From Kappaphycus alvarezii (lineage: Eukaryota > Rhodophyta > Florideophyceae > Gigartinales > Solieriaceae), in NCBI GenBank assembly GCA_002205965.3, contig NADL03000523.1, forward strand, positions 1,302,001-1,366,000: a DNA stretch of 64,000 bases, in the 5' to 3' direction. Every line of letters begins with the position of its first letter. Within the stretch, counting starts at the first letter, position 1. Made by a program: the position numbers and the translations under genes. Under the pieces are notes generated by a model that saw only the letters and a list, made by a program, of their open reading frames with translations, was not told the DNA's origin and ran no database searches. Positions 1,010 to 47,700 of this stretch are shown in pieces.

Positions 1010-1342
1010 TGGTGTTGGATCTCGAGATTGGTTAGGTGTCGCAGGACTGAAGCCAAGCGTTTGGGGGCAGAGGGGACGGTGGCACTGTTGAAGCACACCA
1101 GAAGGCTGGAAGTCAAGTACTGTAGTGGGAGGGGAGAAAGGAAAGATACACTCAGCCCTGTAAGCACATTTGCTGGAAGGTGGGCTGTAATGGTGAAGCT
1201 TGCAAAGGGCACTGTGTAAGCACACATATAACTTGCGGTAAGAGAATAGGGACAAAGAGAGACCGAAAAGAACGAAAAGAAAAAAGGAAAAAAACCTCGC
1301 ATCAACTGTTGTTCCGACTCCCAAAACAAAAAAACAACACCA
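1010..1342 (+). repeat. 5' LTR of Ty3/gypsy element
   Basis: The LTR begins TGGTGTTG and ends CAACACCA, perfect 8-bp inverted termini. It aligns along its whole length with 7559-7894, including the shared stretch gatctcgagattggttagg and the block agcacaccagaagg. Substitutions and small indels are frequent between the two LTRs. Confidence 0.85.
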
Positions 1343-1344
1343 AA

Positions 1345-2489
1345 ATGGTACTCTTGGGACAGGGTGACTCCGAAAAAGCTGCATCCTCTAGCATAACCGG
1401 GGTCAGAATGTTCAACGGACAACAAGATGTACGTCGTTTCTTCTTTAACCTGGAAAACGTTACCATGCATGGGAAGAAGATGGTAAGAGAAGCTTTGAGT
1501 TACTCGCCAATCTTGACGGTGAAGCCTTCAAGTACTTCTTCGATCGATTCACTGAAGATGGACAGATCATGTCGGAAGGATTGGACTTCTAGGAGGTTAA
1601 AAAGTCATTCATTGAGCGTTTTTAAATAAGAGAGGAGCTACAGGATATCATTCGAAAGGCCATGTCCGTAAGTCTGGAAAAGAACGAGCTTTCAACTTCT
1701 CTACATAAAGTAAACTATTTGTAAAACAAAGCATCGTTCAACGAGGAGGCAAAGTGTGGCTTCTCGCGCAAAATTGTGATGAAAATTCCTAGGCTGACTG
1801 CGTTTTGTATATACAGAGGCCTAGAAGACTACGAGACCTTGAAGAAAGTCGTGGAAGACTTCGACCGAGGCAATAAGACATTCCAATCCATCGACGTCAA
1901 TCAAAGCCGTCTCTTCCTTCACTCAAGCGACAGCATTGGTAAGAAAGAGGCTGCATTGAAGCCGCAGAAAGACACATCTCGTGATATCCAGATCAAGGAT
2001 GTGGAGGATAAGATCGACACCCTGGCGGATAAGCCAGCAGATTTAACACTCGTGATCAAAAAGAGTCAGATAAGGCAGAAAAGTGGACAACCTAATGGAA
2101 AAAATCCCAGAGCTAGTCAGGCCGGATCGGAGAGAATGTTCACTTATTGCAAGAAACCGGGACACAGTTCAAATAGATGCTTGGATAATCCCAGCAGAGA
2201 AAAGAAATGATATTCATGTGGAAAGATGGGCCATGTCGAGGAAAACTGTTGGTCACGCCTTCGCATGGAAGGAAAAAGTGAACTCAATGTGATTAAGGAA
2301 ACAAATGGTAGAGAAAGAGATGAAGTTCCGCCCAAGGGATTAAGCAACAAACAAGTAGCCCAGGTGAATCTAGTAATGGAAACTTATTCATCAGATGAAG
2401 AAGTGCTAGCAGTCAAGAGGAGTGCAGACGGTCAACCGGCCCAGAAGCAGCACAGAACTGGAGGTAAAACACCGATAGGACCTTTTTGA
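1345..2489 (+). pseudogene. gag-like polyprotein, frameshifted, two zinc knuckles
   Basis: The frame starting at 1345 encodes a gag-like N terminus (motif FNGQQDVRRFFFNLENV) and then shifts frame several times. The segment 1776-2210 holds the C-terminal part of gag. Two consecutive CCHC zinc knuckles are visible at about 2136-2240: YCKKPGHSSNRC, whose first Cys is lost, and SCGKMGHVEENC. The stop codon TGA at 2208-2210 lies where the first cysteine of the second knuckle is expected, so it is most simply a Cys-to-stop mutation. The frame continues to 2489 as a hydrophilic linker. The product would package element RNA. Decay makes function unlikely. Confidence 0.75.
1346..1363 (+). other. Candidate primer binding site
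   Basis: Three bases after the 5' LTR the sequence reads TGGTACTCTTGGGACAGG. A start of TGG immediately after an LTR is expected for pairing with the CCA end of a tRNA. The tRNA is not assigned. The candidate gag ATG (1345-1347) overlaps it. Confidence 0.55.
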
Positions 2490-2606
2490 AATCCCGGCAC
2501 ATCACTAAGAGCCAAGAAAAGGGTGGCAGCCAAGAACACCAAAAAGAAACGGAGTTTGAAGAAGAGCAAGAAAACCTATCCAACCGAGCAGACGCCGAAG
2601 TAAGAA

Positions 2607-3218
2607 GTGATTACTGAGATGGTGAATGAATCATCTTGGCTTACGTTTGGACAGCTCCTACGAGGGGACACGTTGGAAGCTAGGTCCGAGATAGTAGGGC
2701 TTCTGAAGGATAGGACCTCCCAGAAAGTGAATGTGTTAAATACTACAAACCGTCCAGCCGATCACGGCAGACGAGTTTTGAAGCTAGCCCGTATCAAGGT
2801 ATTCGGTATGAAAGTTTATGTGCTACTTGATTCGGGAGCAGTACCGAGTGTATTGTCCAAGAATATTGCTTACAGACTAGAAGTGCCTTTAGAGGAAACA
2901 AAGAAGAGAATCACAGTGGCTACGGGTGTCACATCTGCGGTTTCTGGTATCCTAAGTTATGTTCCTATCACTTCAGACGAGATGACAGTAAAACTGGACT
3001 TTCAGGTATTCAAAGACTCACCTTTCGATGCCGTTACTGGAGACCCATCAATGGAATCTCTTAAAGGAATACTGGATCTTGGAGAAAAATTCCCTTGGAA
3101 CCTGGTTATAAACGTCAAACAGGCTCGAAGACCGAGACAGATAGTGAGTACTTTACTTCAGCCTCTTCAGCTGTGCCCTCTTCCAGCTCCGAATCTGGAC
3201 GTGAAGAAGGAGAGATAG
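2607..3218 (+). pseudogene. Retropepsin-type aspartic protease domain
   Basis: The frame contains VYVLLDSGAVPSVLS with the catalytic DSG at 2829-2837, preceded by a hydrophobic strand, as in Ty3/gypsy proteases. Such domains act as dimers and cut the Gag-Pol precursor. The frame is open for about 200 codons and ends before the reverse transcriptase. Its distance from gag and the many breaks on both sides show it is part of a decayed pol gene. The DSG motif itself is intact. Confidence 0.75.
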
Positions 3219-3375
3219 AATATTTCATCATGATCAAGAGTGACCTATTAAGGCGAAAATAACTCCCTTCAGGGGAAGCATGAGCACGTGGAGAAACCCA
3301 ACCGCAACCGTATCGATGAGATAATAAGCACAAGCGTCGTTATAGCATCATCTTTGTGCAACTTGAAGCAGGCAG

Positions 3376-4664
3376 ATGTTCCCATTGAGCACCTGTTTGA
3401 GCTCAAGGATTAAAAACACATCGCTCTTCGAGCATAAGATCGTGGGAGAAGAGCTGGACGAGATGCTAAGTGCTGGAGTTATCGTCCCTTTATCATCTGC
3501 ATGGTCCTTCCCAGTCGTCATTGCGACTAAATCGGATGGAAAGGCAAATTGCTGCGTCGACTACAGAAAGTTAAACGAAATTATGGTGCAGAAAAGTTGG
3601 CCCATCCCCAAGCTTCAAGAGATATTTGATGACATCGCATGTTCTAAGGTTTTTACAATCCTGCATTTGTTCACTGGGTACTGGCAAGTATGTCTAGCCG
3701 AGAATTGCCGAGAGAAGCACACTTTTAATTGCATATATAGCAACTACCAGTTACAAGTTATCCCGTTTGGGTTAATGAACGCACCCTTCACGTTTTAGCG
3801 CATGATGGACAGGGTGTTAGCAGAAGTGGAGTTTGTCCTTGTCTACATTGACTATATAGTTATATTATAGAGATCAATAACCGACCACATGGAACATATA
3901 AGGCAGAGTTTCGGGCGGCTTTCCCAGTACGGCCTCAAGATTAAGCTAAAGAAGTGTCTTTTCGCGAGGAAGGAGATCAGTCTGCTTGGACATGTCGTAA
4001 GATAAATCGGAGTGAGCGTTGACTCAACGAATATCAAGGCCATCCGTCAGACTCCGAGGCCAATGAATAAAATCGAGCTGCGTAGCATTCTAAGCCTCGT
4101 TGGTTACCACTGACAATTCATCCGTGGATTCGTGAGTATATTAGCAGTGCTGCATGAGGTTACATCGAAGAATAGACCGTTTAAATGGACAATGGAGATG
4201 AAAGAGTCCTTCGAGACCCTGAAGATTTCTCTGACATCTCCCGCAGGCTTAAAATTTCCATTCTTCGAGCGGCCGTTTATAGTTGAGACGGACGCATCAT
4301 CGGTGGCTATCGGGCTGCTCTCTCTCAGAAGAGTTCGGATGGTACCATACATCCAGTGGAGTTTGTCAGTCGCTCAAAGACGACGGCCAAACACAAATAT
4401 CCAACCTGGGAAAGAGAGCGCCTTGGCGTGGTATTTTACTTGCGGAAATTCCGGATGTATTTCCTTTCTCCGGAACCTTTCAGGTTTAAGACGGATCATC
4501 AAGCACTGAGCTATACTTTCAAGAAGAAAGATGTACATGGAAGACTTGCGCGGAGGTTGGATTTCTTGGCCGAATACAATTTCGAAATTGAATACATACC
4601 GGGCGAAAAGAAAAATGTTGCGGATTTCCTGTCAAGTTTACCTCCTACACAAGAGAGAAGCTGA
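3376..4664 (+). pseudogene. Reverse transcriptase and RNase H domains of Ty3/gypsy pol
   Basis: Reverse transcriptase motifs are visible in order: CVDYRKLNEI near 3556, the tyrosine block GYWQV, and PFGLMNAPF ending at a TAG stop (3796-3798). The catalytic box reads VYIDY at 3841-3855, so the second Asp is replaced by Tyr. More stops follow, then the RNase H domain: VETDASSVAIG with its first acidic residue at 4291, a frameshift, TDHQALSYTFKKKDVHGRLA, and IEYIPGEK before ADFLSSLP. Domain order and motifs are those of Ty3/gypsy. The copy cannot encode active reverse transcriptase. Confidence 0.9.
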
Positions 4665-4688
4665 GAATCAGACGAGGGCGACCTGTTC

Positions 4689-5930
4689 ATGATAAATATA
4701 AGAAATCAAGGATTTGGGTCACTTGAACTAGAACCAGAGCTTAGAAAAATCCAAGATTACTTGAAGGGTCGCGAGTTTACCGAAGCCGACGCGAAGAAGC
4801 GGCGGAGAATCAAACGTATAGCAAATAATGTTCTTGGTTGGGAAGGGAAACTATTGCGACGCACTAAATTGGGGTTGCGACTAGTCCCGATGGTGTCCGA
4901 GAGGGGTTAGACTCTTAAGTTCTACCAATATGAGCTGGGGCACTTGAACTCGATATCAACGATTCAGATGATCGGACAAAGATTCTAGTGGCCGAGATCG
5001 GTAACGGATATTATACAGTACGTCCGGTCTTGCGACATTTTGCCAGCGTATGGGACCTCGCCCACGTTACAAAACGAACCGCGGGACTCCATTCCGGGGA
5101 CTATTCGACATCTCCTCTATCGATTTTGCTGGACCTTATTCCCTGACAAAAAGGGGTTCGCGCTTTATCCTTGTTTGTTTAGAGCACCTCAGTGGATGGC
5201 GAGCAGCAAATGCCACTTCCAACGCAACTGCGGAAGTGGCTAGGACTTTATCGAAAGGGAGGTGGTCCACTCATTCGGACCCCCAACTAAAGTCATAAGC
5301 GATAATGCCGCATGTTTCGCAGCTAAAGTGTTGAAGGAATACCTACTCAAAAGCGGTATTTAATGGAAGATGATTTTATCATACGCCCCAATGTTAAATG
5401 GAAGTGCAGAACGGATGTTTGGGACCATTAAGAAGAGTATTCAGAGGATAGTTCAACCCGACCAATTTGAATGGGACGTCGCTCTAGATTCAGTGGTCTT
5501 CGGCTACAGACGTAGACAAATGGCTGGAGGAGTTTCCCCGTTTAAGCTCCTCTATGGAGTCCCTTCGAACATGCTACCGCGGTAAAGGTTGGTAGAAAGG
5601 CCGAAAGAACGGACATTGCCAGATGAGGGACGCAAGATGCCGCTAATGGGACTCGACTCGAACAGGGCCAGCAGGATTATACAGGGGATCAAGAAGCCTG
5701 ACAGTATCAAGATACTTTCGTTCGAAGTCGGAGACCAAGTACTCGTGGCATATGGGCAGGCCTTCGGGACAGAGAAGTGCCCAGCCTTTAAGGCACTGTT
5801 CTATGGGCCCTGTGAGATCATTAGAGCCCGCTATCCGCGATGTCTCCTGAAGTCAGAGAAGGGCCGCTTTACCCGCAACGCGATCCATGCAAGGCGCTTG
5901 GTGAAATACATCAAGCACAGCAAATATTAG
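4689..5930 (+). pseudogene. Ty3/gypsy integrase with C-terminal SH3-like domain
   Basis: The N-terminal zinc-binding region is degenerate (GHLNS, then SCDI, near 4930-5040). The catalytic core keeps all three acidic residues at the DNA level: Asp at 5122 (SIDFAGP), Asp at 5301 (ISDNAACF) and Glu at 5409 (NGSAERMFG). The last two are 35 residues apart, the usual D35E spacing. The first Asp is in another frame, and a TAA falls between the other two. A conserved patch GVSPFKLLYG and a C-terminal VGDQVLVAYG segment at 5730-5760 follow, interrupted by TAA at 5583-5585. The enzyme would join element cDNA to host DNA but is broken here. Confidence 0.88.
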
Positions 5931-6076
5931 GGTTGAGATATCATCTATCCCCTCAAACACTCCTTAAAATCTACGTGGAATTGGATATTCATCATCACAT
6001 GCATAATCGAAGAATCATTAAGTAGCTACGACACCTCAAACTGAGTCCAAAGCCCTTTTCCGTCTCTTCCGTTCCG

Positions 6077-7440
6077 TTATCTTTTCGTTGCCCTCTTCGT
6101 TGCCTTTTTTGCTTTCGTTTCTTCCTCGTTGCGACCATGGAGATATATCTCGAAGGCGTCGTCGAACCAGAGATAATCACGCGGATCATTACTTACACTG
6201 CAGATTGCAAAGAACTCCTCGGCCAGGCTCATTGGATATATTTCAGCACAATCCAATATTTTCACAGGATGGGAACGTCCGTCGATACAAACCGCCTGAA
6301 GTAGCTCATGTGCCCCGATGATACGTAAGACACACACGCCCCGCGAGAGTTCGTTATCCGGAAGAGTGCTCAACCAACTGTAGTCATGCTCTTCAAGACA
6401 GAGACGGCGGCGGGTGTAACCAGAGGAGGGCCCTTCAGCTATAATGACAGGTCTACGGAATCCAAACTACTTATGTAACCCACAGGTCGCTTTGTCAAAA
6501 TCGATGAAGCTCCTGAGTACCTGAAAGTACGCATGCTCCACGAAAAACGCCTCGAACCGTTTCTTCTCCGCCTGGCAAAATGACCTTGCTCGATCTTCCC
6601 TTACAAGTTCTCTTAGGGCATGGGCGACGGACATCCGCATGCGTTCATCGAAAAAGTCCCTAAGGTTCTCAGGAAAAAATCTTAGGAGAATAGAGGCGGC
6701 AAGCGGAGGTGGTGGACGTGTCATGGCGTAGTTCACATTTAGCTTTTCCCCTCGGTTTTTAGCACACCAGGAGTCAATAAACAGTATCTTGGCAACGCGG
6801 GTTGGATTATCAAAGATGACTCGTACGGATTTATCGGCCGGATCTCCTATGAATGTCAGAATATAGAGATAGATCATCGCCTTCTGAGGGTCAAGTTGAC
6901 ACAAAACATAGTAAAGCCCTTCTTTTTCATCAACTTTGCCATCTGAAAGCCAAATACTTGTGACGTTCGAAGGTAGAGATTCCAGACACACGGTATAGTC
7001 TTCGGTATCAGAGTGGTTCTCCGTAAGTGCAAGCCGTTGACAGCGTGAAACACTCATGTCTTTACAGGATCCATCTTCAATGAACGCGACAATCTGCTTT
7101 TCGAAAAGCTCGAGCAGGACATTTTTGTGGCTTCAAGACGAAGGTTACGTCGCTGAGGACCGAAAGACACGAAGAACTGGTCGACGTTGCGGGCCCGAAC
7201 TATGTTATGGAAGTCGTTTCTCTCACAGAAACAGAACACTTTCTTATGGACGACAGAGAGAGAGAAATAATCGAAATTGAGGGCTTTGAGTTTGTCCGCT
7301 TCGGTTGAACCCATTATGATCGTTCGGTTGTCGGACTTCACCAACTTTCTAGTCTCCGAGCGTGCGGCCTTTTCCGCTAGCTCCTTGCGAGGGACTATAC
7401 CGCCCACACTCCTCCTCGCGGTCTGCTTAGTAAGAGCCAT
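6077..7440 (-). pseudogene. Antisense gene: histone H3 tail-like N terminus joined to an unknown protein
   Basis: This minus-strand reading frame starts at ATG 7440-7438. Its first residues, ALTKQTARRSVGG then PRKELAEKAAR, align without gaps with the N-terminal tail of histone H3: 19 of the first 27 residues after Met are identical. T3, K4, R8, S10, R17, K18, K23 and R26 are kept; R2, K9, K14 and K27 are not. No histone fold follows. The rest, about 425 codons, resembles nothing I recognise: a mixed acidic/hydrophobic region and a basic lysine-rich C terminus. Two lesions break the frame. One is a one-base shift in an A run near 7120; the other is a TAG at 6467-6469, after which the same frame stays open to 6077. 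The gene lies between pol and the 3' LTR, antisense to both. H3-tail-like sequences can in principle engage histone readers and modifiers; that role is inference. Confidence 0.6.
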
Positions 7441-7558
7441 TACGGGGAGCCAGCGGCTAGGGATTTGGAACCGTTTAGAACGACCTATTCTCCAGTCCGA
7501 TCCTGGCTGATAGGCGTGTGCTCGTGGACGAACGCCGGGGTTTCGTCGGAGATTGGAG

Positions 7559-7894
7559 GCGTGTTCGATCTCGAGATTGGTTAGGGTTTGCAGGACTGAA
7601 GCTAAGAGTTTGGGGGCAGAGGGAAAGGTGTAACTGTCGAAGCACACCAGAAGGTCGGAGGTCAGGTACTGTAGTGGGTGGTGACAAAGGAATGATACAC
7701 TCAGCACTGCAAGCACATTTGCCAGAAGGTGGGCCCTAATGGTGAAGCATGCAAATGGCACTGTAGAAGCACAAATATGACGTGCGGTAGGAAAATAGGG
7801 GCAGAGAGAGAACGAAAAGAAAGAAAAGAAAAATGAACGAAAAAAAGCCACGCATCAACTGGTGTACCGACTCCCAAATCAAAAAACAATACCA
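7559..7894 (+). repeat. 3' LTR of Ty3/gypsy element
   Basis: This is the partner of the 1010-1342 repeat, alignable end to end and ending CAATACCA. The left terminus has drifted (gcgtgttcg instead of tggtgttgg). It lies directly upstream of the antisense H3-tail gene as read on the minus strand, so any antisense promoter for that gene would lie here. Confidence 0.85.
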
Positions 7895-7981: not shown

Positions 7982-8896
7982 TTACAGGGCCGGCTCAATG
8001 CCCGCGAGCAGGCATGCAGCGATGGACATGACGGCCGCGGCAGCGTGCGTTTGGGTAAGAACCGCTCTAACCATCCCATAGATCTCCATCGCCCGAACTG
8101 CCACGTTCCGCGCGACGTCGGTTAGCACCGCGTACGCGTCTGGGTGCCAGCCTCCAAAGGTGGATATTGGGATAGGCACTAGCATTCCTCTAGTAGCCGT
8201 CGCGAGCAGTGGTTCATACTTTCTACGTTTGGCGGAGATGGCTGCGTTGAGGGAAGTGAGTGGGTTGAAAGTACGCACTCTCGTATTGGAGGGCGCAAGA
8301 GGATTGACGGACGTGACGTCAAAAAAATCCGTTCCTCCGTTGCTACCCATTGCCTCGATATCCGGCCTTGTGCGATGAAGCCCCTGCTGCCGCTCAATAG
8401 CCGGATGACGGGCTGCCTTCTGGAGGTCTTGGGCGAGGAGGACGACTTGACGGTCTTGTCGTCGGGTGCGGTGCCCACTATGCAGGCAGTGCATGAGGCG
8501 ATCCCCGTGGCAGTCGAGGACCTCTAGGCAGTTTGGGCGTGGGCACGGCGTGTCTGGGGCGAACAGCGGGACTTGGAGGTAGTACTGGAGCCACACTGAG
8601 AAATCACGGGCTTCAATATTGGTCTTGAGGGCGGGGCGCGGAGCACAATAGGCCCATTCCTTTGCGCCGGGAAGGCCCCTAGGAGCCCGGAAAGCTTGAC
8701 GTCGTTGGTCGCCGAGAGGGATTTCTTCTCGTACTGCGGCATAGACTGCGTCTGTCAGTGTCTTTTGCGGAGGAGTTTTGATTGAGCAAAATACACAAAA
8801 GGGAAGGAGTCGTGAGGGCAGGCAGGAGATAGAATATATGCGGTCGGCGCGGACGGCATCGTTGTATGTCGTAAGATCCGTGATAGGTGCCGGCAA
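7982..8896 (-). pseudogene. C-terminal zinc knuckle and restriction-like endonuclease of non-LTR element
   Basis: This frame is open for about 300 codons to its natural stop near 7982. It contains a cysteine/histidine cluster (CPRPNCLEVLDCHGDRLMHC) followed by RTRRQDRQVVLLA and the endonuclease core RPDIEAM, then TDFFDVTSVNPLAPS. That is the pattern seen after the RT in restriction-like-endonuclease non-LTR elements. The end of the protein has GWHPDAYAVLTDVARN and an alanine-rich tail. The same C terminus recurs at 37.3-37.9, 38.7-38.9, 24.1-24.3, 25.2 and 31.2-31.4 kb, which supports a real family. The frame joins the upstream thumb only through a frameshift. Confidence 0.85.
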
Positions 8897-10200: not shown

Positions 10201-11858
10201 CAGCCCATTGGATCAAATCGCTAGCCCTACTGCCAACGAGTGTAAAATATTAAAAATTATCTAAGAGCCAATTGCAGCACTGTACCCGCGTGCACTGCGT
10301 GCGCATTGGTCATAGAAAATTAATATTCGCTAATTTTTGAAAAAGCCGCAGCCAATGAGAATTAAACATTGCTGCCGCTTATGCTGATGATGATGCTGAT
10401 GCTTATACTGAATTTTTTCATTGGCTCTCATTTTGTAGATTTTTGATAGTTTTTTTCGCAGGTCGTACTTGAAAGGGCTCAAAGTTGGCGGGAGTTGCAT
10501 GCCACAATATAAAATGTGCGATTTTGGGTATTTTTTCCTACATTTACTGTACACTGTAACCTGCCTAATTTGGTGCGCCACGTGCGAATCTGCCTACCTT
10601 TTCAACATCTCCCCTAATAAAGCCCTCCTAATACCCCGTTTAAAGCTAATACTTGACCTAATCATTATTATAGTAGAAAACACATTTTTTCTCACAAGGA
10701 GGAGAACTGAAAATGCTGAGGATTTCTTGCTTTATTTTTGGGTAAGAGCAGGCTTATTTCATCCTCATATCAACGCTCGGAGGCTTGCATCGGGTGGCGA
10801 TCGCTGTCATCTAGGAACATGTGAGTATTGTCGCTATCCGCGCAATGGATCGTGTTTTGAAGGCCCAAAGTATTCTTTTACAGCGACAATCCACATCGGC
10901 AGTAACCTCCAGTTTGGGGTGTTTGCCTGCAGTCCTCCCCTCTACTTGCTGCTAGAGTGAAGCGCCTTTTGTGCCTGACACAACGTTTCAAGTAGATGCT
11001 CGCTACCATCATACAAGTTGAATGGGTACCAGCGAGCTTATTTGTTACGGTGAGGGAACCCCCGTGACCCTCTTGATTTCTGCCACATGGTTTGGAAAAG
11101 ATTTATAGTAATTATACTTTACTCTCCGCGCCACTCAAAGTAAAATAACCACGTTAACTCAGTTTCGCCTTTCGACCTCCCAGTTTTAATTTAGTTATTA
11201 TGAGTGATGCATTACTGTACAGGGTGCAACTATGGGACAAAGAGTGTGAAAATTGAAAAACTACGTTTACAAGTACTGGAAAACCATTTCATTTACTTTT
11301 AGTATCGAAGAAAGTGATAAAAAGTTGTGAAACAATGTTTTATCAGAGTCCCTCAATTATTACTTATCGTCGATCATCGAAAAATATTTTTGTCTATTTG
11401 TCACTGGCCCATATTTCATACTGTATTAAAATTGGAGCATTTGCTATGTATTTCAGACGGTTAATAAATTCTACAGTTATTATCACTGTAATGATATTGC
11501 AAGCAAATTATTATTTGAATTAATGATCACCTAGAGAATTATTCAATAATTATTGTTGAGCATGAATTTGGTATACAAGAATTAATACACTGCTGTGACC
11601 ATCTTTCTAGATATTCTACTCTGATTTAAAGTATAAATAATCTTGGTGTATTAGAAAATTTAGCAATCCTCGGGTCATCGAACTATCTCTGTCGATCAGA
11701 AAATTTTTGTTTTCTTTATATTATTATTTTCAGTCCTATTCAGGTCATTTTAATTGTTCATTTACTTAAAATTTTCTACTTTATGTCTAAACATTTCATT
11801 TAATTTTTGCAGTCATGGGCCCAGATCGCATTGATATCCTCTAAAGGACGCTCACTCG
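10201..11858. other. Region without assigned gene
   Basis: No convincing gene is visible. A 163-codon plus-strand frame at 10469-10960 has no domain and crosses AT-rich, low-complexity DNA. Near 10745-10800 the plus strand faintly resembles the end of the non-LTR element (a stretch comparable to its VPISTLGG-HPDA motif), so part is probably old element debris. 11100-11858 is AT-rich and featureless. Confidence 0.5.
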
Positions 11859-12704
11859 TGGCAAAAACGCGTTCCTTCGTCTTTCAGGACAAATGCGTAA
11901 GAAATTTGACTATTGGGAATCTAAGTTCGACAATACTACACTCCATAGTGTTCATATCTCTACCACGCCAAATCTTATCGTCCTTTCACGAAGCTCATAC
12001 ATCTCTAGGCATCTACTATTGCTGATTACTCATCGTTTGAGGACTAACGCTCCCTTTGTGGAAAGCTTGCTTAGGCCACTCACACTCGCCTAGATATTTC
12101 TTGTGCCGTCGCCTTAGCTGGACAGGTGACCAAAATTTAATTCAATTCAGACAAATCACGAATCTGAATAAAATATTGACGCACGTCTAAACATCCCAAT
12201 AAATCTCTTTCATACTCTCCCCTGGATATCAACTCTCTCCGCATCACAGTGTACTCTAATGCCGCTTTCTCCAATAATACTTTTATTCCCTCTCAGCTAG
12301 GGCTTCTTATCCTACTACTGGACGCTTCGGAAAAGTTTCATGTACTCCACTACTACAGCAAGAAAAGTATTATGTTGTTCGATCTATTATAGCTGCTGAA
12401 TTTGTCGCCCTCGCAGATGCATTTAATTTTGCATAAACACTTCGAATGGATCTCCAAAATTTCCGTTACCGAGACATTCCTTTCAATATGCCTACAGACT
12501 CAAAGTCTATGTTTGACCTCATTACAAAATGCTCTTCGACAGCTGAAAAAGGCTTATGATAGATATACCCCCAACAAAACATACCTACGATCTCGAGGAC
12601 ATTTCATATGTTGGGTTTGTGCTGACATTTGCGAACCCAGCCGATGCCTTCACAAAGGTGGGCCACTGCTCCGCCTTGACTACCATTTCGAGAGCACCAA
12701 ACAA
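11859..12704 (+). pseudogene. Copia reverse transcriptase/RNase H fragment, left arm of inverted repeat
   Basis: This plus-strand fragment encodes the end of a copia-type reverse transcriptase (MRKKFDYWESKFDNTTLHS) and an RNase H (SNAAFSNN, SQLGLLILL, AAEFVALADAF), in several frames. It matches 14185-15032 in the opposite orientation almost base for base: I counted 7 differences over 260 bases at the outer end. Homology stops sharply at 11859 and at 12704. It lacks the upstream catalytic VDD box that the other arm's element keeps, so it is a truncated copy. Confidence 0.85.
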
Positions 12705-12967
12705 GTACTAGAACAATTGGCATGTACACTCAAATAATGATAAGTTAATTATATTATTACAAAAAAAATGTGACGATGAATGCAAAAAATATTTATCAAC
12801 CATTATTGATTCGTGCAAATATTTTGATATCAATAATAAACCACATCATTCTCGGGCAGTGTCCATAAGTTCAATATCTCGTTTTTAATGAATTGTTGTG
12901 AGTGGATCATTTTATGTGGACAATTTAGATTTTTTTCATATTATAGACTCAGTTACCAGTTTTCTGT

Positions 12968-14123: not shown

Positions 14124-15240
14124 TTATGAGATAAGGAGACTGTTGGTTTTGACGTATGGCCCATCGCTTATTAGAAAGAGAACATGTTTGGTGCTCTCGA
14201 AATGGTAGTCAAGGCGGAGCAGCGGCTTACCTTTGTGAAGGCATCGGCTGGGTTCGCAAATGTCAGCACAAACCCAACATATGAAATGTCCTCGAGATCG
14301 TAGGTATGTTTTGTTGGGGGTATATCTATCATAAGCCTTTTTCAGCTGTCGAAGAGCATTTTGTAATGAGGTCAAACATAGACTTTGAGTCTGTAGGCAT
14401 ATTGAAAGGAATGTCTCGGTAACGGAAATTTTGGAGATCCATTCGAAGTGTTTATGCAAAATTAAATGCATCTGCGAGGGCGACAAATTCAGCAGCTATA
14501 ATAGATCGAACAACATGATTACTTTTCTTGCTGTAGTAGTGGAGTACATGAAACTTTTCCGAAGCGTCCAGTAGTAGGATAAGAAGCCCTAGCTGAGAGG
14601 GAATAAAAGTATTATTGGAGAAAGCGGCACTAGAGTACACTGTGATGCGGAGAGAGTTGATATCCAGGGGAGAGTATGAAAGAGATTTATTGGGATGTTT
14701 GGATGTGCGTCAATATTTTATTCAGATTCGTGATTTGTCTGAATTGAATTAAATTTTGGTCACCTGTCCAGCTAAGGCGACGGCACAAGAAATATCTAGG
14801 CGAGTGTGAGTGGCCTAAGCAAGCTTTCCACAAAGGGAGCGTTAGTCCTCAAACGATGAGTAATCAGCAATAGTAGAAGCCTAGAGATGTATGAGCTTCG
14901 TGACAGGACGATACGATTTGGCGTGGTAGAGATATGAACACCATGGAGTGTAGTATTGTCGAACTTAAATTCCCAAAAGTCAAATTTCTTACGCATTTGT
15001 CCTGAAAGACGAAGGTACGCGTTACTGCCATAAATGATCGTATCATCAACATGGACACCTATAAGGCCTCTTAGTCTATCAGAATCACTTGAAGAGAACA
15101 GAGTCATTTCGTTCAAGGACGATGAAAGTGCGACGTCTCTTTTACGGTGCGCAACCATTGTGGGATTCCAGTAATCTTGAGCATCCGATAGACCGTAGAG
15201 GGGCTTGAGTAAATTGAGAATTTTTTCATTTGAGAGTCGA
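14124..15240 (-). pseudogene. Copia reverse transcriptase and RNase H
   Basis: On the minus strand the sequence reads NEKILNLLKPLYGLSDAQDY at 15236-15170, the characteristic copia YGLSDA block, continues in frame into MVAHRKRDV, and reaches GVHVDDTIIYGSN, so the VDD catalytic pair is intact. The frame stays open to 14796. RNase H follows in another frame (SSAAFSNN, SQLGLLILL, AAEFVALADAF) and ends near 14124, just inside the 3' LTR. The segment 14185-15032 is the right arm of the inverted repeat with 11859-12704. Confidence 0.88.
14185..15032. repeat. Right arm of 0.85-kb inverted repeat
   Basis: This is the reverse-complement match of 11859-12704. Arms of 848 and 846 bp flank a 1480-bp spacer. 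Base differences are few and gaps short. A transcript across both arms could fold into a long double-stranded stem. Confidence 0.85.
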
Positions 15241-23607: not shown

Positions 23608-23740
23608 ATTCAAGGAGAGGGAAATTTTTGGTTATTATAATGCATGGAAGATGTGGTCGGTTATATCCACGCGGCTAATGCGTTATGCGGGATAAGTCGT
23701 CGCTGATGGGTAATACTACAGTACATGACCTTCCTTTCAA
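23608..23740 (-). mobile_element. Non-LTR 3' tip: empty version of the Ty3/gypsy insertion site
   Basis: The block matches both flanks of the Ty3/gypsy element: 966-1009 on the left (gagaggga, atgcatggaagatgtgg) and 7900-7980 on the right (cggttatat, aatgc, ttatgc-ggataagtcgtcg, tgatgggtaa, catgaccttcctt). Here the two halves are continuous, reading gatgtggtcggttatat. It is therefore a paralogous copy of the same non-LTR 3' UTR without the insertion, and it fixes the insertion point of that element. Confidence 0.85.
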
Positions 23741-37139: not shown

Positions 37140-37930
37140 AAGGGGAAACATTGGGGTGTTTTAATGATTGAAAAATAGCGTAGCCTACATTCCAAAGCGC
37201 CTCAAGTAATTGGTACAAGTGGTCGGCATGTGGGAACCAAGAAACGGAATCAATCCGGTTCAAAGTCGCTAGAAGACTGGCTCGAGGCCAGCCAGCAGGC
37301 AGTCCGCGTTGGACTTGGCAGCGGCCACAGCGTACCTTTGCATGAATATCCCTCGAACCTTCCCGTACGATTCCATGGCCCTGACTGCAACGCTTCTTGC
37401 CACCTCGGTTATCACTGCTTATGCGTCTGGATGCAAACTACCGAGAGTGGATATGGGCACGGGGACGAGTCTGCCTCGAGAGGAAGTAGCAATGAAGGGT
37501 TGATACTTTCTGTGCTTCGCCGCTCGGGCTGCGGTAATGGAGATCAACAGATTGAACGTGTTGACTCTCCTGTTCGATGGCGCGAGGGGATTGACAAAGA
37601 TGATGTCGAAGAAGTCAATCCCCCTACAGCCTCCCATTGCCCGAATATCCGGTCTCGCGCGGTGGAGGACCTCTAGCGTCTCTACGACCGAATGACGGGC
37701 GGTTCTGGCCAGGTCCCTCGCCAAAAGACTCACTTGCCGGTCGTGACGAATGCTCCTGTAAGGGCCGTGCAGGCAGTAGAGGAGGTGGGCACCATAGGCG
37801 TCCAACAAGTGAGGGCAATTTGGTCTTGGGCATGGTTTGCAAGGAGCAAACAGCGGGACTTGGCAGTGTTATCGGAGCCACTGGGAAAATTGCCGGGCCT
37901 CGATGTGCGTTTGTAGTCCGGGAATATATA
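37140..37930 (-). mobile_element. Non-LTR element C terminus and 3' UTR
   Basis: On the minus strand the sequence begins near 37925 with THIEARQFSQWL, followed by a cysteine/histidine cluster (PCPRPNC, then YGAHLLYC), the endonuclease core RPDIRAMGG and IDFFDIIFVNPLAPS, RLVPVPISTLGSLHPDA, and a tail ending ADCLLAGLEPVF near 37265. One stop lies after HPDA. The 3' UTR runs to about 37140 and ends with the family motif around ttaaaacaccccaatgtttc. It is closely related to the copy at 7982-8896. Confidence 0.85.
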
Positions 37931-38569: not shown

Positions 38570-38908
38570 TGAAGGCGAATAATAGAAGAGAAAACGTTTG
38601 GGTGTTTTACTGTAGGAAGATATTTCCGACCTATCCCATGGTTTTCCAGACAACCGCAATCGACTCAAAGAGGGTATACCTACAGCGTAATGGGGAAGGA
38701 ACTACGCTTCCTAAAACGCTACCTTCAGGCCAGCCATCAAGCAGGCCGCATTGGACATGACGGCTGCTGCAGCGTGCCTTTGCATCACAACCCCCCGAAC
38801 CTTTCCGTACGTCTCCAGCGCCCTCACAGCCACGTTTCTTGCCACGTCATTTAGCACTGCACATGCATCCGGGTGCCAACCTCCAAGAGTGGAGATTGGC
38901 ATTGGCAC
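38570..38908 (-). mobile_element. Non-LTR element 3' end
   Basis: The frame at 38711-38908 reads PMPISTLGGWHPDACAVLND and ends NAACLMAGLKVAF, the last 65 residues of the non-LTR protein with no internal stop. The 3' UTR follows to about 38570 with the terminal motif tcctacagtaaaacacccaa. It is a 5'-truncated insertion. Confidence 0.8.
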
Positions 38909-42294: not shown

Positions 42295-43794
42295 GTGTCT
42301 CTCACAGATATTCGCCTACTTCTTGAGCGGAACAATCTTTGGTCTGACACCGTTGCTGATTATGTACATCAGCTGATTGAGAACTGTGTCTCATGCAGAG
42401 CTACTGCTCCCCAGCAGCCCAGCCGGAAGGTGTCCATATCCTCTCTGTCTCGAAATTTTAATGAGGTTGTCTGTATAGACCACTTTTATCTCGATGAAGT
42501 GCTGATACTGAACTGCATGGACATGGTGACAAGATTCTCCGCTGCACATGTAGTAAATTCTACAGCGATTGATGACGTAATATTTGTGTTCGAGGCTTGT
42601 TGGCTAAACCAGATTTGGTTACCGGAGTCTATTCAAGGGGACAAGGCATTTGCAACTGCTAGCTTCAAAAAGTATATGGATGAACGTTCCATTTCCTTCA
42701 GGCTTGTACCCCCCAACAGGCATAGCAAGAATCCTCTCGAAAGCAAGCACGGTATTACGAGGAGCATTTTTCTAAAGCTCAGAAATACCGAACCCGACAC
42801 CGCTGCTGACCTACATGCCTGTCGCGCGGTGGCCATCTCGAATGATCTTTACGGAAACGATGTTATTTCATCATATGAGCTTGCCAAAGGATTCATGAAG
42901 CCACTGACCGATGCTGATTCACAGGCCATCCCCGATGATGTTATAGAAGCTCATGAGAAACTGAAAGCCAAGCGAAAGCTCGCACTGATTCTCAAATCGA
43001 AGTCCACACGAGAAACTAGTGTGGCTGCTGGAGATATGATAGAAGTCTTCTCTAGGACTGGTATGGATAAAACTGGAACTTGGTACATGCCGAAGGTTGT
43101 CCTTTCTGTGGACTCTAAAGCACGCACTGTACTAGTGCCAGCCAAAGGTGGCAAACGTGCCACTGCAGCCTTGGAAAATAATCGTCTCGCTCTGCCTACT
43201 GACTCCTTTGCCAATGCAGTTCAGACTGCAATTGATGAGGTCGAAAATACCCTTGACGATGTCTCGGTCCCTGAAGAAAAGGGTGAGGATCTAGATAAAG
43301 GAAGTGCATGTCAGACGACGCATGATGATGCACACTTCAGTGATGAGAAAAACATTACCTCTACTTGTTTAACGAACAAAGACACTGTAAGGCGTGGCGT
43401 TCGTGTGCTCGTGTACTGGCCTGATGACCAAGCACACTATGCTGGAACTGCCAAACTCTTGCACCGTGATGGTTGCGTTACTGCGAACTATGACGACGGA
43501 GATCAAGAGCGCCTAAATCTTTCTCAGGAAAATTGGCACCTTGAGAGTACCACTATGTCTGCCAATGCTTCACAGATTGTATCTAGTCAGTCAAATGTGC
43601 CATGTGTCTTTGACGAGGAGCCTAATGACCTGAAACTCATGAATGAGCACTTTGGAAACAAGAGCTTCATGAAGCATCAAGCTCAGGGGTTCGAGCAGTA
43701 CACCCTCAACAAGTCGGACGACACCGAGGAGACTAGCTTTCTCAAACTGTCAAAGTTGTTCCCTATTCGGGCGTGCCGAGCAATGCCAATATAG
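42295..43794 (+). CDS. Copia integrase with Tudor-like module
   Basis: This 499-codon frame is uninterrupted and continuous with upstream sequence except for the TGA at 42241-42243. The N-terminal zinc site (HVCRH before 42295, then CVSC) is followed by the catalytic core: Asp at 42478 (VCIDHFYLD), Asp at 42640 (IQGDKAF), Glu at 42739 (NPLESKHG), spaced x53 and x32. Further on is GDMIEVFSRTGMDKTGTW, a C-terminal integrase strand region. Residues 365-417 (43387-43545) read RVLVYWPDDQAHYAGTAKLL, then VTANYDDGDQERLNLSQENW, strongly resembling Tudor/agenet-type folds, which bind methylated residues in chromatin proteins. The frame ends at TAG 43792 and overlaps the next frame by one-base offset. 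Confidence 0.85.
   Translation: MSLTDIRLLLERNNLWSDTVADYVHQLIENCVSCRATAPQQPSRKVSISSLSRNFNEVVCIDHFYLDEVLILNCMDMVTRFSAAHVVNSTAIDDVIFVFEACWLNQIWLPESIQGDKAFATASFKKYMDERSISFRLVPPNRHSKNPLESKHGITRSIFLKLRNTEPDTAADLHACRAVAISNDLYGNDVISSYELAKGFMKPLTDADSQAIPDDVIEAHEKLKAKRKLALILKSKSTRETSVAAGDMIEVFSRTGMDKTGTWYMPKVVLSVDSKARTVLVPAKGGKRATAALENNRLALPTDSFANAVQTAIDEVENTLDDVSVPEEKGEDLDKGSACQTTHDDAHFSDEKNITSTCLTNKDTVRRGVRVLVYWPDDQAHYAGTAKLLHRDGCVTANYDDGDQERLNLSQENWHLESTTMSANASQIVSSQSNVPCVFDEEPNDLKLMNEHFGNKSFMKHQAQGFEQYTLNKSDDTEETSFLKLSKLFPIRACRAMPI
43387..43545 (+). other. Tudor-like domain inside copia pol
   Basis: The segment shows YWPDD, then an aromatic AHYAGT, then YDDGDQERLNL and a closing W. This is the arrangement of Tudor, PHF1/agenet and related Royal-family domains (Y-W, Y-x-G-x-V, YDDGD, L-x-x-E-x-W). 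Assignment is by eye. Confidence 0.6.
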
Positions 43795-46399: not shown

Positions 46400-47700
46400 C
46401 AAACAAACAAACTCTTTTATTACAGATTCACTAAACCGAGCAGGGTCACTCACGCATCAGGTGATGCGAGAGACAGGGCACGGCGAGCTACGGCATGGGC
46501 CGTGAGCTGGAGGACGAGGGAGGAGAGGGTGGTGACCAGGCGGTCGTATTCGACGGCAGCGGTAGTGCCGCGTCGTGTGGAGAAGAAGGCAGCTATCTTC
46601 CCTAGCGCGTGTGGAGCAGAGGAGCCCAGTGCCCCGTGTGTGTCAAAGCCAAGGGGGTAGAAGTCAGCGTGTATTGTTGCGCAAAGGTCGGCGTAGCGTG
46701 CCCTCTTCTGGGTCTCCACAGGGAAAGTGGCGCCGCCTGGGGTCTTGCGGGCGTGGGGGATGGCGGCAGCTGTGTACGGGCTGGCGACAAAGACATCTAT
46801 GGCGCAGGGGCGAGGAGAGAGCTCGTAATTGTCGATTAAGATGTCCATCCTGTGACGTTCTTGGGGCGGGAGGTGGTTTTCCGCGGGGAAGGTGTACTCG
46901 AGGGTGGGGTTGAGCAATGCGGATGGGTGCCGAAGTAGGGAGAACAGCTTGTTCCGTAGGTGGTTGTGCCTTCGGAGAAATCCTTCCATAGTTGGGCAAT
47001 GAGTCGCGTGTCTGCCGAGCGGGTCGAGGATGGGCGGTGAGCGAGCGTTGGAGAGCAGACATCGAGGGCACTGGTCGTGGCCACTGAAGACCGGGTTGCC
47101 GAGGCGCAGTAGGACCATGTACGTCCAAATCTCGGGGGAGACTCGAGTAGAGCTGCGTGAGTCCGGGAGTGTGAGGAAAGGGGAGTTGGCAGAGCGGGTT
47201 CGGCAGCTAAGGTTCCTCGCGAGGCGTTGGGCTGCGGTTTCATGTTGCGGGGGAGAAGTTAGGTATGCTTGCAGGCGTTGCTCATGAATGGCATTGGTGA
47301 TAGTTTGCTGGACGCCTTGCGGTGGGCCCACCGTATGAAGGCGGGCGAGCAGGGGCTCAAGTTGGAGGTGGTCGGGGAGGAGGGACTGGTTGAGGGAGCT
47401 GTGCGTTCTGCGGATGGCAGAGGTGAGGAGGTGGCGCCCGTACAAGACAAGAAAGCAGTGTCAAAAGGTTGGGAATGCGTTGCATGCAGAGGCTCATGGA
47501 GCGGCAACGAGATATTTTGACTACAAGGATAAAGGTTGTATTCGATCCTGAGACTAGATCGAGCGGTTGTTGATTGGCACTCGGCAAAAATGTGGCAGCA
47601 AGGAGGGATATTTCGTACCCTCGCGCCTGGTAATTGTAGGTGCCGCATGACGCGATGGACATCAAGGAAAGTCGACAATGCTTTTTATGTATGGAAACCG
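46400..47700 (-). mobile_element. Second non-LTR retrotransposon family, 3' part
   Basis: The 331-codon frame at 46450-47445 starts MYGRHLLTSAIRRTHS (possibly inside the element) and has the endonuclease-type C terminus: a CCHC knuckle (CPRC then LGRHATHC), RHNHLRNKLFSLLRHP, RMDILIDNYELSPRPCAIDV with the catalytic-type Asp residues, GATFPVETQKRARYADLC, and an alanine-rich end. Sequence is clearly different from the 7.9-10.2 kb family. Frames at 47259-47678 and 47357-47725 extend it upstream with shifts; no reverse transcriptase is recognised there, so it is 5'-truncated. GC content is markedly higher than its surroundings. Confidence 0.8.

Follow-up and report, generated by a model that had tools for sequence, protein, structure and literature searches.

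The mimics of the histone H3 tail known to us are a few residues long; the SNAG domain, for example, is a short H3-like stretch able to engage H3-binding proteins. The accessible parts of the respective sources describe the same ability for short H3-like stretches in influenza NS1 and in the linker of BAZ2B. Antisense accessory genes are likewise on record for retroelements: plant Ty3/gypsy elements of the Retand/Grande kind carry an antisense open reading frame (ORF) between pol and the 3' long terminal repeat (LTR) in most copies of a lineage, its function being given as unknown in the accessible part of that study (PMC11963269), which also cites HTLV-1 HBZ, a nuclear protein encoded antisense to gag-pol. 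Finally, chromatin reader domains occur in Ty3 Pol, namely in chromoviruses and, as a Tudor domain, in Ectocarpus Gypsy-10_Ec32 (PMC12477816, accessible part). Here we analyse a 64-kb stretch of DNA (hereafter the window) in which a decayed Ty3/gypsy retrotransposon carries an antisense accessory gene whose protein begins with a copy of the H3 tail, a feature kept in diverged relatives throughout the host genome and joined there to a predicted papain-like cysteine-protease domain.

In its position between pol and the 3' LTR the gene resembles those of Retand/Grande, and in being antisense to gag-pol it resembles HBZ, to which we liken it by arrangement, not by sequence or domain. To our knowledge, HBZ has no H3 tail. 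The contents also differ from those of Retand/Grande, whose ORFs encode TRP28 (PF04195) and other DNA-related domains according to the accessible part of the study, whereas here we find an H3 tail and a predicted papain-like domain; none of the window pieces and 34 family rows examined with Pfam matched TRP28, and the word "histone" occurs 0 times in the main text of PMC11963269, as far as that text was accessible. Compared with NS1, BAZ2B and SNAG, the mimic described here spans H3 residues 1-26 at the true N-terminus of a retrotransposon protein, beside a protease-like domain. Elements with reader domains share with this one the theme of retroelement proteins dealing with histone tails, but those encode a tail reader within Pol, whereas this one supplies the tail, as part of a separate protein encoded antisense. 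Clan CA proteases (C39 and Josephin types) are akin to the protein in predicted fold and in the order of Cys, His and Asp, yet no credible sequence match appears in Pfam or among the PDB rows listed (best 60 of 138), and the activity is a prediction. In the literature searched, which was without preprints and most subscription journals, we found no retrotransposon carrying an H3-tail protein; PMC3248453, which deals with LTR elements of fungi, has 0 occurrences of each of the terms antisense, additional ORF, histone, cysteine protease and accessory. The antisense accessory gene is of a known kind, and its protein is undescribed as far as the literature found goes.

Results

A minus-strand frame with its ATG at 7440 begins MALTKQTARRSVGGIVPRKELAEKAAR, to which canonical H3 aligns without gaps and in the register of the true H3 N-terminus, with 19/26 residues identical after the Met (20/27 including it). 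Searching the window with H3 by tblastn recovers this tail at E 1.2e-7 with animal H3 and at E 6.5e-8 with yeast H3, whereas the second-best matches lie at E 0.15 and 0.13; a phmmer search of the PDB with the 128-residue frame returned H3 or H3-variant chains in all of the best 60 of 131 rows (top E 3.9e-5), and the family profile matches H3 at its first ~40 positions only (best 60 of 138 PDB rows). Together, these matches rule out chance similarity to H3. No histone fold was detected after the tail, the other H3 matches within 6000-7600 all being no better than E 0.7. The initial annotation had read an ungapped H3 tail directly after the start codon, no histone fold behind it, and an antisense position between integrase and the 3' LTR; all three points were borne out, the last in the window element and in other copies. 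A nested insertion with terminal repeats of its own was rejected, as 5800-7600 holds no convincing inverted repeats.

The window's gene is broken (Table 1), its frame change falling in the overlap 7132-7057 and its last segment, 6466-6080, returning no new frame but sharing that of 7132-6470. Its openness exceeds chance: it has 3 lesions, the terminal stop counted, whereas 2000 sequences from a first-order Markov model have 5-19. Of 2506 real window segments from both strands 140 are equally open, many of which cover the antisense gene, its neighbour or a Copia element. Pol has 4-8 lesions per 1364 bases, the antisense gene 2 internal lesions. The surrounding element is an old, decayed Ty3/gypsy copy, with the Ty3 order of protease, reverse transcriptase (RT), RNase H and integrase on the plus strand by Pfam, the integrase matches being weak. 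Its ends and its 5-bp target duplication, now degraded (GTGGT/TTAGT), are fixed by an insertion-free copy of the host repeat at 23613-23739. The integrase end showed no chromodomain in the single decayed copy scanned, whose frame ends at 5930; a Pfam scan of 5589-5927 gave 0 families.

We then searched the host genome itself (336 Mb in 884 contigs, eukaryotic by content). At E <= 1e-3 the 128-residue frame has 37 matches, including that to the window itself. A protein of a second subfamily (A; query L031) gave at least 113 matches at E <= 1e-5 (820 first-look candidates, 98 scored) and one of a third (B; query L039) at least 130 (846 candidates, 122 scored); these counts are lower bounds, include several matches at some places, and the L031 and L039 lists may overlap. 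The gene is thus no single-copy oddity. Indeed, it belongs to a large superfamily of at least four subfamilies, usually antisense to related pol genes, which we label C (the window's group), A (L031, L032 and others), B (L034, L036, L039, L085 and L086) and D (L038, L057, L062, L064, L067 and L070). Their proteins are ~420-510 residues long and comprise a 27-residue H3-tail copy, a middle region and the predicted papain-like domain. As the initial annotation had proposed to check, the tail is kept in many diverged copies. A match beginning at the tail was found in 29/31 loci (26 of L041-L070, and L031, L032, L033, L035 and L037) and not in L048 or L063; four of the 31 (L056, L060, L068 and L069) are visibly degraded. 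Group C counts leave out L009-L011, near-identical to L008, and L026-L029, which are the same places as L025, L021, L023 and L017; L030 was also dropped from the residue, substitution-rate and Cys/His/Asp counts and retained in those of placement.

The antisense position is shared as well. In group C, integrase lies antisense to the gene and 3' of it in 16/23 distinct places, and an LTR stands just upstream of the ATG in 18/23; integrase has the same placement at 23/30 of the places found with the A protein, which belong to A and D. L056 and L069, which look like one arrangement copied, are both counted in these figures. Where integrase is missing, the group C loci L004 and L014 end at most 3 bases from the gene, and at the other 12 places the sequence retrieved contains none. 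In B, flanks were read for two elements, C458 and C826, and each has RT, RNase H and integrase antisense and downstream. On C488, the two LTRs of an A element share 95.9% identity over 320 bp, and this copy is much younger than that of the window; the repeat pair on C826 is 73.7% identical over 205 bp. Furthermore, distances between antisense bodies correlate with those between integrases (r 0.86; 545 pairs from the 34/53 loci with enough overlap, with 0/500 permutations as high), and the antisense gene has therefore travelled with pol.

Among representatives of A, B and D, the tail is better conserved than the rest of the protein. Tail identity exceeds body identity in 10/10 pairs of five representatives (one of A, three of B and one of D, with C not included), at 0.38-0.81 against 0.23-0.43, the closest pair having 0.46 against 0.43. 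Within A, the ratio of non-synonymous to synonymous substitution rates (dN/dS) is 0.25 for the tail (codon bootstrap 0.16-0.37) and 0.43 for the body (0.38-0.48), from 71 close pairs of 210 among 21 loci; a separate earlier estimate gave 0.26 and 0.43. The tail thus appears to be held by selection, clearly in A. This comparison of tail with body, which the initial annotation had suggested, points to purifying selection on the tail in A (0.25), but in group C tail and body evolve alike. At four-fold degenerate third bases, 14 tails of our choice agree with a host H3 gene, L040, at 48/190 positions, which is the chance level (single tails range from 0/13 to 5/10); L040 was the sole host H3 gene compared. 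The protein sequence of the tail has thus been retained despite drift at the DNA level, and a recent capture from an H3 gene like L040 is therefore excluded, as it is by the tail-over-body identity and the dN/dS in A. Neither of the outcomes that the initial annotation had named as refuting, other copies lacking the tail or a recent capture in this single copy, was borne out.

Which H3 residues are kept depends on the subfamily. For the counts, one stretch was taken per tail, that of L024 running through a frame change, while the K4 and K9 counts for the other three subfamilies come from inspection of alignment rows by eye. Group C has R at position 9 in 19/21 tails and S at position 27 in 15/21, with K in 0/21 at each; K is found at position 4 in 14/17, at 14 in 14/21, at 18 in 13/21 and at 23 in 18/21, and R at position 2 in 8/16. 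Two substitutions of the window's group say nothing on function, because Leu at position 2 (R2L) is private to the window copy (1/16) and K14I occurs in 2/21. In the 24 rows of A, position 9 is R in 21 and K in 0, position 4 is K in all 24, position 27 is mostly K, and position 14 is R in most rows. The five B proteins have L at position 9 in 4 and K in 1, with K at position 4 in 4. Across tails, P16, R17 and L20 are widely kept, likewise much of T3-R8. The earlier reading of K4 as kept and K9 and K27 as lost therefore stands in part: K9 and K27 are lost throughout group C and not in the window copy alone, whereas D keeps K9 and is without K4, and A mostly has K27. Most of A, B and C do combine a kept K4 with a lost K9; D does not. 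In all four subfamilies the H3 resemblance stops at about residue 26-27, and the sequence after AAR differs between them.

The body, unrecognised in the initial annotation, ends in a domain that we now predict to have a papain-like cysteine-protease fold. Cys, His and Asp stand in order in 21/24, 13/17 and 13/15 rows of alignment A1, respectively, and in group C the Cys is found in 11/18 and the His in 12/16; the window copy has lost the Cys and the His of these putative catalytic columns, and the predicted structure of its 221-residue piece alone, with a predicted local distance difference test (pLDDT) score of 37, is too poor to be of use. Pfam gave no credible match for the window pieces or the 34 family rows, nor did the profile search of the PDB give any besides the H3 tail (best 60 of 138 rows). 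Several copies end in a strongly basic run. A separate locus, L038 (C585:1418000-1419300), has a 177-residue open ORF in which a D-type tail is joined to the His/Asp end without the Cys part; it is an internally deleted, still open form.

Discussion

The architecture, comprising the tail, its antisense position and its conservation, is read from sequence, with the fold of the C-terminal domain predicted. We think it quite possible, if somewhat short of probable, that the gene encodes a nuclear accessory protease using its H3-tail mimic to reach silencing proteins that bind the H3 tail. Antisense transcription from in or near the 3' LTR would express the gene, and the basic end together with the tail would carry the protein into the nucleus, where readers or modifiers of the H3 tail may bind the mimic. 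Such binding could direct a protease, or a deubiquitinase-like activity, to the complexes responsible for silencing the element, and the replacement of K9 by R or L in three of the four subfamilies may let the mimic be bound without being marked as heterochromatin. It is possible but doubtful that the fuller version holds, in which evolution has equipped a Ty3 clade with an enzyme dedicated to countering silencing. This would be a protease or deubiquitinase of papain-like fold, made antisense and aimed by a full-length H3-tail decoy at H3-tail-binding silencing complexes, with K9 mostly replaced against marking and at least four subfamilies engaged in an arms race. That the tails differ between subfamilies speaks against a single fixed ligand; our guess is that this diversity would suit an arms race with host readers.

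Several observations weigh against a targeted protease of this kind. Subfamily D has K at position 9 in 5/5 rows and at position 4 in 0/5, and K27 is kept in A; the tails as a whole can therefore not be accounted for by any one reader or mark. Of the group C copies, no more than 9/16 retain the Asp. The whole predicted model is weak (mean pLDDT 56, predicted template modelling score 0.45), with a low-scoring loop at 305-322 inside the domain, and a Foldseek search with it returned no row at E <= 0.001. Group C tails (22 loci) have a dN/dS of 0.61 against 0.47-0.62 for the body, with synonymous sites near saturation, and the dN/dS values in general come from pairs that are not independent and copies that are mostly decayed, mixing selection before insertion with later neutral change. 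Finally, the basic end could suffice on its own for nuclear import, and transcription, binding and catalysis of the accessory protein are steps that we infer from sequence.

If the tail were a nuclear import signal only, the element would simply have borrowed the H3 1-28 signal of Kap123 for its accessory protein, which we consider unlikely. In yeast, H3 1-28 is an import signal bound via K14 and K23, with a minor effect of K14R, according to the accessible part of PMC5677370. The borrowed stretch is of about the same length, K23 is kept in 18/21 group C copies, and position 14 is K in 14/21 of them and R in most A rows. However, Kap123 ignores the sequence of residues 15-22 (PMC5677370, accessible part), yet P16, R17, L20 and much of T3-R8 are kept, and a long basic stretch of the import-signal kind is already present at the end of several copies. 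The tail might instead be a substrate or pro-segment, the papain-like domain cleaving H3-type tails and its own tail serving as internal substrate, inhibitor or switch. Cathepsin L, a papain-type enzyme, clips the H3 tail between residues 21 and 27, and the end of the H3 resemblance at about residue 26-27 in all four subfamilies would fit such a cut, as would the predicted fold with Cys, His and Asp in order; the cleavage site is putative, however, and the sequence after AAR varies between subfamilies, and we regard this account as rather improbable.

The protein could also act as a tether, its tail binding chromatin readers and steering the pre-integration complex to or from certain chromatin. 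Ty3 integrases with chromatin reader domains, tied to targeted insertion, are known (PMC12477816, accessible part), and in the window copy Pfam detected no chromodomain at the integrase end, but the accessory protein is unfused to integrase and lies on the opposite strand, and a protease-like domain would be superfluous in a tether; this makes tethering a distinctly improbable role. Least plausible by far is a functionless captured fragment of a host H3 gene. The at least 9 nucleotide changes in the window tail are near neutral decay since insertion (4.7-4.9 expected non-synonymous, P 0.05-0.06), and the group C tail is no more constrained than the body; against this, tails are kept in many diverged copies with identity above that of the body, the tail dN/dS is lower in A, and four-fold sites agree with L040 only at chance level.

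Antisense accessory genes of retrotransposons are known and their roles are not; here two readable modules are kept across diverged subfamilies. If our proposal of a nuclear protease with an H3-tail mimic is true, transposons would not only read histone tails for insertion sites but also display a tail to interfere with silencing. The differing tails are natural experiments on the H3 residues that host readers need, and an undescribed group with a predicted papain-like fold joins the domains taken up by mobile elements.

Feature coordinates and additional observations

Table 1. Coordinates in the window of the Ty3/gypsy element, its antisense gene and the empty site.
Feature	Position	Strand	Remarks
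Ty3/gypsy LTR retrotransposon copy, decayed	1010..7894	(+)	LTR pair bounded by TG..CA; 5-bp target duplication, degraded; empty site known; Pfam matches to protease, RT, RNase H and, weakly, integrase
5' LTR, 333 bp	1010..1342	(+)	p-distance 0.145, Kimura two-parameter (K2P) 0.161 to 3' LTR
gag region	1345..2600	(+)	ATG directly after 5' LTR; two CCHC-like knuckles (our reading); broken frames
Retroviral aspartyl protease	2607..3215	(+)	Pfam RVP_2 E 6.6e-7
RT pieces	3367..4002	(+)	Pfam RVT_1 E 7.6e-7, just under cut-off
RNase H	4287..4661	(+)	Pfam RT_RNaseH E 1.7e-16
Integrase pieces, GPY/F-like end (our reading)	5005..5927	(+)	weak rve E 0.025, rve_3 E 0.0027
Antisense accessory gene, broken	6077..7440	(-)	open 7440-7057; frame change into 7132-6470; TAG 6469-6467; then 6466-6080
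Basic C-terminal tail KAKKATKRATKR	6080..6115	(-)	relatives with longer runs, e.g. KKKRRRRRPKP
Predicted papain-like domain, approximate extent	6130..6690	(-)	placed through relatives; Asp kept
His column	6298-6296	(-)	Gln in window copy
Cys column	6643-6641	(-)	Arg in window copy
Histone H3 tail mimic (Met + H3 residues 1-26)	7360..7440	(-)	H3 matches; kept in other copies
Spacer from antisense ATG to 3' LTR, 118 bp	7441..7558	(.)	matched in many copies
3' LTR, 336 bp	7559..7894	(+)	pairs with 5' LTR
Empty site (repeat copy without element)	23613..23739	(+)	unoccupied form of target repeat

The gag ATG of the window element (1345) lies within a few bases of the 5' LTR (region 1343-1360) and, since it adjoins the LTR, leaves no room for the usual tRNA primer site; perhaps the element is self-primed. 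Among copies of the antisense gene, L008-L011 form a convergent pair with starts ~2.3 kb apart, at C586:3964953-3967282 and C631:1566640-1568971, in an arrangement identical on the two contigs, and at L021 (C54, ~300080) the LTR matches flanking the gene copy are in opposite orientations. Beyond the host genome, a set of 5.8 billion proteins, searched with the window's group C pieces only and not with A, B or D, held no relatives except the window's own 196-residue ORF, and scans of viral_contigs and genome_contigs with short exact patterns found none. This antisense ORF (P0001; window 6470-7057, minus strand) is linked in the protein set to one contig of 1637 bp, and the same DNA therefore seems to have been sequenced elsewhere.

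Elsewhere in the window, a Tudor-like domain lies at 43378-43524, between the integrase and RT of a Copia-like ORF (42295-43794), with a weak Pfam match to a BAHCC1-like Tudor (E 0.0013, below cut-off) and a PDB match to 7de9 (E 4.1e-6). The Tudor domain of the Ectocarpus Gypsy element was, to its authors' knowledge, the first in a transposable element, as stated in the accessible part of that study (PMC12477816). The Tudor-like match here differs in being in a Copia element. Two minus-strand ORFs, 7982-8896 and 46450-47445, resemble the ends of reverse transcriptases of the long interspersed nuclear element (LINE) type; Pfam gave no match for them. Diverged copies of the former, which adjoins the Ty3/gypsy element, lie at 37279-37904 and 38729-38908. 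Finally, a long inverted repeat (11848-12709 and 14179-15041) has arms 97-98% complementary and ~1.5 kb apart, one of which contains an ORF that, by our own reading, resembles RT.
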